From Streptococcus pneumoniae (GTDB lineage Bacteria > Bacillota > Bacilli > Lactobacillales > Streptococcaceae), in NCBI RefSeq assembly GCF_001457635.1, contig NZ_LN831051.1:1550001-1614000 (forward strand): 64,000 nt of DNA, given 5' to 3'. The translations under genes were made by a program, and so were the position numbers. Shown here piece by piece: positions 31,506-38,298 of this stretch. Position 1 is the first letter of the stretch. Every line of letters starts with the position of its first letter. A model generated the notes under the pieces. That model was not told the origin of the DNA. It saw nothing but the letters and a program-made list of their open reading frames with translations, and did no database searches.

Positions 31506-32342
31506 TTATGACAATAAACGTTGGATATGTAGAACTAGATAAACTCGTTCACTTTTATACAAATCAAGACCCGTATGTTGCGTAATCACATCATAGATCT
31601 TGGAACCAATCTCGAAGGCTTTTGGATAGGATTGTTTAATATGATCTTCCATATCCAGAAGTGATTGGTTATCATCTCTAGATCTGTCTAAATAATCCAA
31701 GAAATAATTCAAATGGATCATAAAGCGATCATAGAAATGGTTATTCTTTTTAGTTCGTTGAATTGCATAGTCCGTTAAAACTTCTTCAACATTCCTGAGA
31801 ATTTCTTTCCTCTTATCAATCGACTCCACAAGTTCCACTTCATTTTCACCTTCAGCATTAATGAAATGATAAGCAATCCGAATAATTTCGTCCTCAGGAA
31901 AATGATCTGCTAGCTTCTGACGGTAAATTTCAAAAGCTTCATTTGCGATTTGAAAAGCGACAGGATACTTAGCGGAAATATCTGGCAGATTACTATCCTT
32001 GTACCTTCCTTGAGTTAGAGCTTGATAAGAACAGTAAATATGATCTGTCAAGGTTACATAGAGATACTCTTGAATCGGATAATGATATTTCTTTGATAGC
32101 TTATCAATGATTTCATAGGTCACTGTGATAAAATCAAGCGGAACATCTTTGAGAAGAGCCATAAAGTTTTCTCTGGACTCTTCGGTCTTCATCCGAAAGA
32201 TTTTCTCAACCTGATTTTCAGCAATCAAATCCCCCTTCCTTTTTCCGAATGCAATCCCCTTACCAATTATAATCACCTCTTCTCCCTTATCATTTCTGAC
32301 AAGCGAGACATTGTGATTCATTGGATTTAGAATTCGATACAT
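31506..32342 (-). CDS. lacT: BglG-family antiterminator LacT
   Basis: 278 aa. The N-terminal RNA-binding domain starts [20 protein letters not shown]; two PRD domains follow with histidines in [11 protein letters not shown] and [20 protein letters not shown]. It binds the leader RAT site when PTS phosphorylation signals sugar, allowing read-through of the upstream terminator into lacTFEG. RBS AGGAGG overlaps the leader end. Confidence 0.93.
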
Positions 32343-32385
32343 GTCAACCTCCTTTTATATCTTAAAGGTATATGAGTACAAAAAA

Positions 32386-32464
32386 TGACCACAAATGAAC
32401 TAGAAAATCAGCTGATTTCTAATTCACCTGTGATCATGCCTAATATTACTTAGTAACACTCACC
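32386..32464 (-). promoter_or_regulatory. LacT RAT site and leader terminator
   Basis: On the minus strand the leader first shows a RAT-like region (ggtgagtgttactaagtaat, then attaggcat; 32435-32464). It overlaps the start of a long stem of about 24 bp formed by tgatcacaggtgaattagaa and ctagttcatttgtggtca, followed by a T6 run near 32380. This is the BglG/LacT arrangement: RAT and terminator are mutually exclusive. Confidence 0.8.
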
Positions 32465-32484
32465 TTGTATTAACTTGTGATTTA

Positions 32485-32513
32485 AGTATAGCACAAGTCG
32501 GTTGTTTTGTAAA
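32485..32513 (-). promoter_or_regulatory. lacTFEG promoter with cre-like palindrome
   Basis: -35 TTTACA (32508-32513), 17-bp spacer, -10 TATACT (32485-32490). The palindrome tgtaaacctttaca (32508-32521) overlaps the -35 and resembles a CcpA cre site. The segment 32471-32522 is repeated almost exactly at 33510-33561. Confidence 0.75.
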
Positions 32514-32579
32514 CCTTTACATACAACTTTTTTTAAAACTTAACTATGTTCTAAAATTCATCAAACAGAGGCTCTGTTT

Positions 32580-32726
32580 TTATTTATTTTTGTAAATCAA
32601 AACAAAAACAGGAAGACAGAAAAATAAAAAAGTAGCTACATTTTTAAAATTCATTAAGTCTAATAAACAAAGAACACAAGAAACTATAAAACAAAATACA
32701 GTTATTTTTTTAAAAGAATGATTCAT
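32580..32726 (-). CDS. Small two-helix membrane protein, candidate bacteriocin immunity protein
   Basis: 48 aa starting MNHSFKKITVFCFIVSCVLC and ending FVLIYKNK; two hydrophobic stretches (about 9-24 and 30-44) around a short loop, Lys at both ends. It starts 14 bp after the stop of the bacteriocin-like gene with an AGAGGTT site upstream, and is followed by a small hairpin (aaacaga/tctgttt). Size, topology and position suit an immunity peptide; no sequence family is recognised, so function is inference. Confidence 0.6.
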   Translation of the reverse strand: MNHSFKKITVFCFIVSCVLCLLDLMNFKNVATFLFFCLPVFVLIYKNK

Positions 32727-32739
32727 AAAGAAATAACCT

Positions 32740-33357
32740 CTAAGGTAAATCTATGGTGTAAACAAGGTTCACAAACGGCACTTCTACTGTAGCTACAGCA
32801 ACTGTCCAATAATTTTCTACAGCAGTTTTTACAGCCCAGCCAATCGCACCACTTATTACAGCAACAAATCCAGATGTAACAGGATTAACCGCAAATTGTT
32901 TCAAATGCCATCCAGCATATCCAGTAGCGAAAGCTCCAGCAGCCCAGCCACCCATCCCCCTCACTTGAGGACCAAGATTGAAACGAAAACCTACAGGACC
33001 TCTTTCGTAAACGTTGGGCAACTCTTTTACAGCTTCATACATCAAACTTGCTTCTTGTACAGAAATACCAATATTTTTTGCTAACTCTTCAGGAGTGCCT
33101 TTTAAATTTATATTTCCAAATTTATCTACATAAAAATAATCTTCCAAAATTTGACCAGCATTTACAATATCTTCTGAAACCGAAACATTATAAAATTTAT
33201 TCCCATCAACATTCAAAACAATATCATTTGCTTTATCTACTGTAGTTAGGGCACTATCTGCAAATACAGAACCACTAAGCATAGGTAAGGCTGATGAGAA
33301 TATTGAAACAATACCTAGTCCTACAACTAACGCTTTAAAACTCTTTTTAGTAGCCAT
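32740..33357 (-). CDS. Secreted bacteriocin-like protein
   Basis: 205 aa. The signal peptide is KSFKALVVGLGIVSIFSSAL with a likely cleavage at SVFA|DSAL. The mature half has a Val/Asn-rich N part, and a Gly/Ala-rich hydrophobic C part: GMGGWAAGAFATGYAGWHLK and FVAVISGAIGWAVKTAVENYW. There are no cysteines. This pattern recalls large linear bacteriocins such as streptococcin A-M57; the match is from general likeness only. RBS AGGAGA. It has its own lac-type promoter and is followed by a possible immunity gene, all between lacD and lacT. Confidence 0.7.
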   Translation of the reverse strand: MATKKSFKALVVGLGIVSIFSSALPMLSGSVFADSALTTVDKANDIVLNVDGNKFYNVSVSEDIVNAGQILEDYFYVDKFGNINLKGTPEELAKNIGISVQEASLMYEAVKELPNVYERGPVGFRFNLGPQVRGMGGWAAGAFATGYAGWHLKQFAVNPVTSGFVAVISGAIGWAVKTAVENYWTVAVATVEVPFVNLVYTIDLP

Positions 33358-33401
33358 TTATCTTCTCCTTTTATAGAACAATGAATGAAATGTGCATCTA
33401 A

Positions 33402-33466
33402 ATATAGTTTATTCTGGCAATATTGTTTCCGTATTTTTCCTTCCTAGCTCGTAAAATAAACTATAT
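33402..33466. repeat. 65-bp inverted repeat upstream of the bacteriocin-like gene
   Basis: Ends atatagtttatt and aataaactatat form a 12-bp inverted repeat around a 41-bp loop, in the 5' leader of the bacteriocin-like transcript. Could be a leader structure or a miniature mobile repeat. Confidence 0.45.
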
Positions 33467-33523
33467 CCTATTTTTATTATACTTCATATAGTTATTTTCT
33501 AATTCATATTAACTTGTGATCTA

Positions 33524-33552
33524 AGTATAGCACAAGTAAGTTATTTTGTAAA
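33524..33552 (-). promoter_or_regulatory. Promoter of the bacteriocin-like gene, copy of lacT promoter
   Basis: -35 TTTACA (33547-33552), 17-bp spacer, -10 TATACT (33524-33529), with the cre-like tgtaaacccttaca at 33547-33560. It belongs to a 52-bp segment (33510-33561) differing at only about 5 positions from the lacT promoter at 32471-32522. Confidence 0.75.
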
Positions 33553-33615
33553 CCCTTACATGTAGCTTTTTTAAATTTTTTTTTAGATTCATGTTCCTAA
33601 ACCGGAAGGGCTTTC

Positions 33616-34596
33616 TTACACTCGTTCTTTCCATGAAGTCGCTGTTGTTTGAAGAACTTTATTGAGTTCGTCAATGTTTTCAAATCCAGTTGTGCGAAGC
33701 CATTCGCGTGCTGCTTCTTCACCATCTTTGATGTAAGCTTCAACCGATCCAGCCCATGTAGCACGGCCACAAAGAACTCCGTTAAAGTTTGCACCTGATT
33801 CGTGAGCAAATACAAGAGTATCTTGGAAGAGTTTAGCTGATACACCAGCACTCAAGTAGATGTATGGCAAGTTAGTTGCTTCATCTTGAGCTTTGAAGAA
33901 GGCTGCTGCTTCTTCACGTGTATAAACTACTTCACCTTCAGCAAAACCTTCAACATATTTAATGTTAACAGGAACTTCAACTTTCAAGACATCAATGTTA
34001 AAGCGTGGGTCTGAGAAGACTTTCATAGCACCGATAACTTTGTGTGGTTTTACTTTAGCGTATTCTACAGAACCAGCGTCAGCAATTTTTTCATCGTAAG
34101 CAAGGATTTCAAGGAAGAATGGGATATCTTCAGCCACACACTCAGAACCGATACGCTCGATATAAGCTTGTTTTTCTTGGTTGAGTTCGTCTGAACTATC
34201 TACATCATAGTAAAGCAAGAATTTAACTGCATCTGCACCCTCTTCTTTAATACGTTTTGCAGACCAAACATCCAAGCAGTCTGGCAAGCGTTTTGTACTT
34301 GTTGTGTCATAACCTGTTTTTTCATAAGCAAGGAGAAGACCAGCTTTTTCATCAAGAGCTTTAGTTGCTGGAAGTCCATACTCAGGGTCAAGAAGCATTG
34401 ATGAAGCGTATTTAGTCAATTCATCTGCTACCAAGACTTTCAGTTCTTCCATTTGAGCCACAGTTGGTTCTTCTGTTTGGTGTTGAGCCATGAGGCGTTT
34501 CAAAGCACCACGTTGGTCAAATGCAAGAGCTGAGATGATACCATTTTCATCAGAAAGTTTTTCTAAGCGTGCACGTTTTTGTTCTGTTAAAGCCAT
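33616..34596 (-). CDS. lacD: Tagatose 1,6-bisphosphate aldolase
   Basis: 326 aa class I aldolase. Lys205 in [13 protein letters not shown] is the expected Schiff-base lysine. It splits tagatose-1,6-bisphosphate into DHAP and glyceraldehyde-3-phosphate. It follows lacC by one base. RBS AGAGG. Length and sequence fit LacD. Confidence 0.96.
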
Positions 34597-37179: not shown

Positions 37180-37609
37180 CTAGAATCCTAGTTCATGATT
37201 GATAATGCCAGCAATCAAATTCATTCGTAATCCGAAGCGTTTACGATGATTTCGATAGGTTGTTGAAAACATTTTAAACGTTTTTACTTTGGCAAAGATG
37301 TTCTCAACCTTGCTTCTCTCCTTGGATAGCGCATGGTTACAGGCTTTATCTTCAGCTGTTAGCGGCTTGAGTTTGCTGGATTTACGTGGAGTTTGTGCTT
37401 GAGGATATATCTTCATGAGCCCTTGATAACCACTGTCAGCCAAGATTTTACCAGCTTGTCCGATATTTCTGCGACTCATTTTGAACAACTTCATATCATA
37501 ACAAATAGTTCACAGCGATATCCAAAGAAACAATTCTCCCTTGACTTGTGACAATCGCTTGAGCCTTCATAGCGTGGCATTTCTTTTTACCAGAATCATT
37601 CGCTAATTC
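37180..37609 (-). pseudogene. IS1381 transposase orfB, frameshifted
   Basis: The DDE C-terminal half: KKKCHAMKAQAIVTSQGRI, LADSGYQGLMKIYPQA and NHALSKERSKVENIFAKVK (Glu region). An extra T near 37495-37510 shifts the frame (AVNYLL stop instead of AVNYCYDMK), so even frameshifted translation from orfA would not give a full enzyme. Confidence 0.75.
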
Positions 37610-37985
37610 TTTTTTTAGGGCGATTGATTTGTACTTCCGTCGCATCAATCATTACCGTGTCCTCAGAGCTGAGAGGAGTTCTTGAAATCGTAACACCACT
37701 TTGAACAAGAGTTACTTCAACCCATTGGCTCCGACGGATAAAGTTGCTTTCGTGGATACCAAAATCAGCCGCAATTTGTTCATAAGTTCGATATTCTCGC
37801 ACATATTGAAGAGTAGCCATAAGAAGGTCTTCTAGGCTTAATTTAGGTTTTCGTCCACCTTTTGCGTGTTTAAGTTGATAAGCTGTTTTTAATACAGCTA
37901 ACATCTCTTCAAAAGTCGTGCGTTGAACACCAACAAGACGCTTAAATCGTGCATCAGTTAGTTGTTTACTTGCTTCATCATTCAT
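37596..37985 (-). CDS. IS1381 transposase orfA
   Basis: 129 aa: MNDEASKQLTDARFKRLVGV, the HTH-like YRTYEQIAADFGIHESNFIR, and the first catalytic Asp in DTVMIDATEVQINRPKK. It ends in a CCTAAAAAAAG tract, the likely slippage site into orfB. Confidence 0.85.
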   Translation of the reverse strand: MNDEASKQLTDARFKRLVGVQRTTFEEMLAVLKTAYQLKHAKGGRKPKLSLEDLLMATLQYVREYRTYEQIAADFGIHESNFIRRSQWVEVTLVQSGVTISRTPLSSEDTVMIDATEVQINRPKKRISE

Positions 37986-38022
37986 AGAACTACTATACCA
38001 TGTTTTGTTTCGCAGGAAGTCT

Positions 38023-38298
38023 AATCTAAAAAAGGTAAATTTAAGATTGGCAATACGAACATTAAACAGAATTCCATTTCTCTTTTTAGAATCAAAACGA
38101 CAATATTGTGGAATCTCTACAGGAACAATAGACTGCGACACTAAAATATCCTCCCTTAGTTTTACTTTACTAATAGTATATAGGAGGAGAGCCCTGAATC
38201 CTAGACCCTTTGTTATGATGCGCTTACAAACAGAGTTGGAAAAAATCTTAAAAGCAGAAAAACGCATGATATCAGCCCCTAACACTTGATACAATGCG
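38023..38298 (-). other. Truncated unidentified frame beside IS1381
   Basis: A minus-strand frame enters IS1381 from the right, containing VKLREDILVSQSIVPVEIPQ and RFDSKKRNGILFNVR. I do not recognise it. It is cut by the IS at 38023 and lacks a convincing start. A degraded copy of the aaaacgcat...atgcgtttt terminator lies at about 38262-38305. Confidence 0.45.

Follow-up and report, generated by a model that had tools for sequence, protein, structure and literature searches.

Introduction

Among the systems that bear comparison with the locus reported here, streptococcin A-M57 and dysgalacticin both contain a cysteine pair forming a disulfide, while CibABC and CabABC are small peptide bacteriocins, the cab genes lying upstream of comAB. 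Dysgalacticin is a class III bacteriocin synthesised as a 220-aa precursor exported by the Sec pathway, its gene adjoining that of a membrane-associated immunity factor, DysI, and it acts on the glucose/mannose PTS and on the membrane (PMC8308785). Within the geobacillin-26 family, alicyclobacillin 24 (Ali24) has been proven to be a class III bacteriocin; it and geobacillin 26 are secreted proteins made as precursors of 238 and 245 aa respectively, in which the C-terminal part is hydrophobic, and the main text on Ali24 makes no use of the word 'immunity' (PMC13176240). CibABC and CabABC combine killer genes with an immunity gene and are expressed in competence (PMC13059744). ScrM of S. dysgalactiae is described as a murein hydrolase of competence with its own immunity protein, ScrI (PMC13192262). 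The CIN-box consensus is given as TACGAATA; in S. dysgalactiae the variant TTCGAATA stands upstream of dprA and of cclA (PMC11288034).

Here we analyse a two-gene cassette lying within the lac operon of Streptococcus pneumoniae, in a 64,000-nucleotide stretch of contig NZ_LN831051.1 (positions 1,550,001 to 1,614,000; hereafter the window, in whose numbering all coordinates are given). A preliminary description, made from the DNA letters, had taken the pair for a bacteriocin and its immunity gene under a borrowed, sugar-controlled lac promoter. In the literature accessible to us on A-M57, geobacillin 26 and pneumococcal bacteriocin clusters we found no published description of the pair, and the terms lactose, lacT, lacD and class III are missing from the main text of two surveys of pneumococcal bacteriocins (PMC6120550, PMC10438807).

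Results

The lac genes and the cassette follow one another on the minus strand in the order lacABCD, a 205-aa ORF (32740..33357), a 48-aa ORF (32580..32726), lacT, lacF, lacE and lacG, in which the labels lacB, lacC and lacF are given by place and sequence and not by the family scan. The upstream neighbour lacD (33616..34596, minus strand; PF01791) and the downstream neighbour lacT (31506..32342, minus strand; PF00874 and PF03123) are typed by Pfam and, with the ORF itself, agree with the earlier account of a cysteine-free 205-aa ORF with a secretion signal between these two genes. The putative signal peptide (residues ~1-33), assigned by eye, has a lysine-rich start followed by a hydrophobic stretch, Ala33 is invariant across 19 aligned sequences, and the mature part contains no cysteine at all. 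The second ORF, a putative immunity protein with two hydrophobic helices, is present as described, at a spacing of 13 nt rather than 14 bp. Upstream of lacA, at 37180-38294, the ORF list shows by eye pieces of transposase-like ORFs.

The putative secreted killing protein encoded by the first ORF has no match in Pfam or NCBIfam at E <= 1 and matches PHROG only at chance level; when 18 family members were scanned the best E-values were 0.0011 in Pfam and 0.011 in NCBIfam, each from one member and none convincing. A first protein search returned 22 relatives and a second, alignment-based search 57, fragments included. The matching database proteins are unnamed or called 'hypothetical' or 'secreted protein' and, where named, come from Streptococcus and Carnobacterium; one cluster (P0001) has 244 member sequences. 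A homologue on a Weissella cibaria plasmid is 38.8% identical over 79%, and further homologues are found in Viridibacillus, Psychrobacillus and Fervidibacillus (Bacillales). By genome, the gene is present in 13/284 streptococci (two broken or partial), in 8/395 genomes of the order and in 1/398 of a sample of the class, the last being the window itself. Conservation across the family is concentrated in the C-terminal ~90 residues. The AlphaFold2 model, built with 43 sequences (mean pLDDT 76, with 82-95 in the blocks after residue 120; pTM 0.45), places after an N-domain (~62-116) a strand (119-128), a hydrophobic hairpin of two helices (137-155 and 159-181) and a beta hairpin (186-204), and has no match at E <= 0.001 among solved and viral structures. 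Beside distant family members lie a divergent Rgg-type regulator (TIGR01716; L060, 2270-3160) and, in the S. mitis SK667 locus, a divergent HTH protein (L011, 2483-3382), which suggests yet other controls of family genes.

The small partner recurs. At 14 of the 17 intact family loci (a count that omits the broken or partial L008, L020/L025, L024, L061 and L063, the weak L062 and same-genome duplicates) an ORF of 40-135 aa containing two or more hydrophobic stretches is found on the same strand within 300 nt, as against 4/182 when ORFs of 130-320 aa from 400 kb of the genome to which the window belongs served as controls (Fisher p 2e-15, a nominal value since the loci are related). Homologue pairs do occur in other genomes, as the killer/immunity reading of the preliminary description implied. 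In ten loci, such as those of S. didelphis (L004), L006, L016 and the window, the partner is downstream; in L005, L007, L018 and L058 it is upstream, L058 having one on each side. The association is thus kept through rearrangement. The proteins encoded upstream in L005, L007 and L018 are similar to the one downstream in L016. Three or four hydrophobic stretches, not two, are present in some partners, and the script found no partner at three of the 17 loci (L010, L021 and L060), L021 showing a 78-aa candidate by eye. Among seven aligned partners the 48-aa ORF is 96% identical to its counterpart in S. mitis 1001175st1_H6 and 13-26% identical to six distant ones, so that the pairing rests on place and topology. 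A database search with the 48-aa ORF returned one cluster (P0059), a 54-aa variant with 23 members in which the C-terminus differs.

A search with LacT found matches in 34/78 relatives' genomes, and 30 lacT loci were read. The ~1.04-kb cassette is present in two of these, that of the window (G000) and that of S. mitis 1001175st1_H6 (G096), in which lacD and lacT are separated by 1276 and 1279 nt respectively; the gap measures 186-486 nt in 24 of the 30 loci, and in three no lacD is in reach. The closest relatives with a short gap (L028-L032, 236-240 nt) show by eye a single promoter copy with the leader behind it. From these comparisons the cassette is best taken as gained by an insertion in which ~70 bp of the lacT promoter were duplicated, and the idea of a borrowed lac promoter is backed by the empty sites. 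It is possible that the cassette was instead lost from all other loci through recombination between the repeats, and we can only guess that the repeats came from the integration, by one crossover, of a circular molecule that bore a piece of lac. One further locus (L054, genome G275) has a lacD-lacT gap of 1086 nt, the sole family match of that genome lying on another contig.

Compared with the window, the S. mitis 1001175st1_H6 copy encodes a 97% identical 205-aa protein and keeps the full reading frame, its gene differing by six synonymous and six non-synonymous codon changes; the 48-aa ORF differs by no synonymous and two non-synonymous changes, and constraint on it is thus not evident. Database proteins P0014, P0020, P0054, P0056 and P0057 represent truncated versions of the window gene or fusions of it to lacT; they may reflect a cassette prone to deletion or decay, or errors of assembly or gene calling.

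Copy 1 of the promoter segment (33507..33575, minus strand) stands before the cassette and copy 2, the ancestral lacT promoter (32468..32536, minus strand), before lacT. The two near-identical flanking copies of the preliminary description are confirmed and are longer than the 52 bp given there, extending over 69 nt of which 60 are identical; when the region was shuffled base by base 20 times, no 69-nt repeat exceeded 39/69. Both copies have the form TTTACA-17-TATACT with TG ahead of the second hexamer (-35 at 33552 and -10 ending at 33524 in copy 1, -35 at 32513 and -10 ending at 32485 in copy 2). Over the whole scan, promoter-like sites number 7 against 5.3 in shuffles, a count not above background, so the weight for a promoter rests on conservation across relatives. 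In both copies a palindrome (33546-33561 and 32507-32522) that we take to be cre-like is seen by eye to overlap the -35 box.

Behind copy 2 only lies an antiterminator leader of the BglG/LicT type (32365..32476, minus strand; RF03530, E 0.003, under the gathering score), and the region 32343-32490 that contains it folds with a z of -4.2; no such leader is found behind copy 1. Given this difference, the cassette promoter is expected to be open to CcpA and not to LacT, that is, to be repressed by glucose through CcpA with no LacT-dependent induction. The sugar control proposed earlier would therefore hold for the promoter and cre-like site, which were copied, and not for induction by lactose or galactose via LacT, whose antiterminator leader was left behind. 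Transcription of the cassette by read-through from lacABCD is also possible.

Between copy 1 and the 205-aa gene is an inverted repeat (33402..33466, minus strand) with arms of 12 nt each (33455-33466 and 33402-33413) and a 41-nt loop. Nine loci (the window, L004-L007, L012, L016, L018 and L020) have a comparable 5' leader with pairing flanks around a core, AAGGA being present in 9/9 and CGGAAA in 5/9, with stems whose sequence varies from group to group. When duplex energies were compared with those of shuffled flanks, the six groups together reached p = 5e-7 (window alone 0.04, G096 0.07, G075 0.17), values obtained with flanks chosen after the sequences had been seen and with single-base shuffles. 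The window leader alone folds no better as a single sequence than its shuffles, and Rfam has no credible match for it in the window. We treat the leader hairpin as a lead, not as a result.

Of the 13 streptococcal genomes with a match, 7 have the family gene next to scrM, intact in six and broken in one (G163). The neighbour in question, which carries the NCBIfam name ScrM, is a CHAP protein, and 3/4 scanned also have an SH3_5 domain; against a cut-off of 400 bits the ScrM model scores 619 at L004, 559 at L005, 584 at L007 and 591 at L018, and 303 at L006, where the protein is truncated. ScrM is above the cut-off in G075, G162 and G163, and in pieces in G275. Viewed from the hydrolase, scrM is over the cut-off in 12/162 genomes searched, and three of those 12 (G075, G162 and the broken G163) have the family gene within the ~4 kb read, which makes it an optional companion of scrM.

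All seven scrM-side loci have a CIN-box-like site at -121 to -136 before the family gene, against 0/9 of the others, in a test of 16 loci from which L002 and L060 were left out and in which L058 and L059 had 256 and 154 nt upstream; the background in the window's own genome is 0.013 per 200 nt. Four of the sites have the form TTCGAATA and three the form TACGGATA, which is off the published consensus and was admitted after the sequences had been seen. From this pattern the family gene beside scrM probably belongs under the SigX competence regulon. In G075 the CIN-box pattern was not found before scrM itself, which suggests that scrM and the family gene there form one operon. The window gene and its G096 counterpart have no CIN-box in the 320 nt upstream.

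Discussion

We consider it rather probable that the cassette is a killer/immunity pair of the class III bacteriocin type, controlled by competence in the scrM-side relatives and placed under a copied lacT promoter here. The support for the bacteriocin/immunity assignment of the preliminary description is comparative in kind: 57 matching proteins, the partner's recurrence, the scrM side with its CIN-box-like sites, the empty sites with the promoter copy, the modelled hairpin and a layout similar to that of Ali24, of other geobacillin-26 loci and of dysgalacticin with DysI. Against it stand the lack of a link in sequence, profile or fold to a proven bacteriocin, the low identity of the distant partners and their varying number of hydrophobic stretches, the loci at which the script found no partner, the codon changes in the 48-aa ORF, the three off-consensus CIN-box-like sites and the broken or partial copies.

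In such a system the 205-aa protein (~18.5 kDa) would be exported via Sec with removal of its signal peptide, its C-terminal hydrophobic hairpin and beta hairpin would insert into or perturb the membranes of related bacteria, and the 48-aa two-helix membrane protein would shield the producer. Copies on the scrM side would be members of the SigX regulon and contribute, alongside the murein hydrolase, to the lysis of neighbours that are not competent. The lineage of the window acquired the pair by insertion before lacT, and the duplicated promoter would give a CcpA-repressible transcription independent of LacT antitermination.

The neighbourhood of scrM and the CIN-box-like sites in seven relatives, together with the missing homology to a proven killer, would also suit a secreted surface or cell-wall protein that aids competence, for example through wall remodelling or ScrM targeting, with the two-helix protein as its membrane anchor or export partner. 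We think this rather unlikely, as the window pair is part of a lac operon and lacks an scrM neighbour, the family extends to a Weissella plasmid and to Bacillales, and a large secreted protein with a tiny membrane partner is the layout of known bacteriocins. The idea that the cassette is a passenger, a mobile or recombined fragment decaying and with no present function in this lineage, draws on its presence at so few lacT loci and on the truncated and fused database versions; it is made highly improbable by a reading frame that is full both in the window and in S. mitis 1001175st1_H6 and encodes proteins 97% identical, by the size of the P0001 cluster and by the intact promoter copy.

A true member of the geobacillin-26, A-M57 or dysgalacticin group that has diverged past detection would have the comparable size, the secretion and the small membrane neighbour seen here, and the window family does have a weak match to Ali24, over 42 columns at a probability of 9%. 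Model NF035925, on which Ali24 scores 123.7 bits, does not match the window protein, nor does it appear among the families listed for the 18 members (0/18); it was found in 24/398 genomes of the class, 17 of them over the cut-off, and in 0/279 streptococci, a set in which the control genomes gave no match either. Aligned by hhalign to 17 geobacillin-26 sequences, the mature parts gave a probability of 2.8%, with a score of 21.6 that exceeds those of 40 column-permuted controls (best 18.4) but falls below that of the reversed control (23.7). Membership of the geobacillin-26 family, which the preliminary description had put up for a search, is not borne out by these comparisons, and we hold so distant a kinship to be improbable.

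Returning to the killer/immunity pair, we would tentatively go further and propose an unrecognised family of large, competence-linked killers with two-helix immunity partners, acting as a companion of ScrM in fratricide, its leader hairpin kept while the stem sequence varies between species, and with the window copy shifted to carbon-catabolite control under the duplicated lac promoter. If this is true, streptococci make use of a class of large bacteriocin that has escaped annotation, its gene adjoining scrM, the gene of the competence hydrolase, in several species; one lineage would have shifted bacteriocin control from a quorum signal to the sugar state, and a lac operon would have gained a candidate factor in competition. 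Whether lysis of the ScrM type has a protein partner would become directly testable, and the small membrane proteins would be immunity candidates both for this family and for geobacillin-26.

The last point draws on a parallel in loci of the geobacillin-26 family. As in the window pair, a small two-helix ORF lies beside the gene in 10/17 of them, Ali24 included; 19 of 30 loci were taken, of which L100 and L103 had no ORF by script, and the remaining 17 contain two pairs that share genomes (L090/L113 and L088/L112) and one doubtful short member (L104). These ORFs are of ~52-72 aa (L085, L086, L090, L092-L095, L099, L112 and L113). The one that follows the Ali24 gene, of ~52-62 aa depending on its start, resembles an ORF of 54 aa that follows the A. 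fastidiosus gene, and we regard such two-helix ORFs behind geobacillin-26 genes as candidate immunity genes.

The other systems differ from the window pair each in its own way. The 205-aa protein is a larger, Sec-type protein than the products of CibABC and CabABC. The seven relatives with CIN-box-like sites adjoin scrM, as named for the CbpD-ComM-like ScrM-ScrI system of S. dysgalactiae, whereas the window copy has neither a scrM neighbour nor a CIN-box, and ScrM is a CHAP hydrolase with an SH3 domain, of which the 205-aa protein has no counterpart. Geobacillin 26 and Ali24 show no significant homology to it, and Ali24 has two cysteines, as dysgalacticin and streptococcin A-M57 have their cysteine pair, where the mature window protein has none. 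Dysgalacticin and streptococcin A-M57, both class III, are moreover plasmid-encoded, the window pair being a lac-operon cassette. The resemblance of the cassette to Ali24/geobacillin-26 and dysgalacticin appears to lie in its layout.
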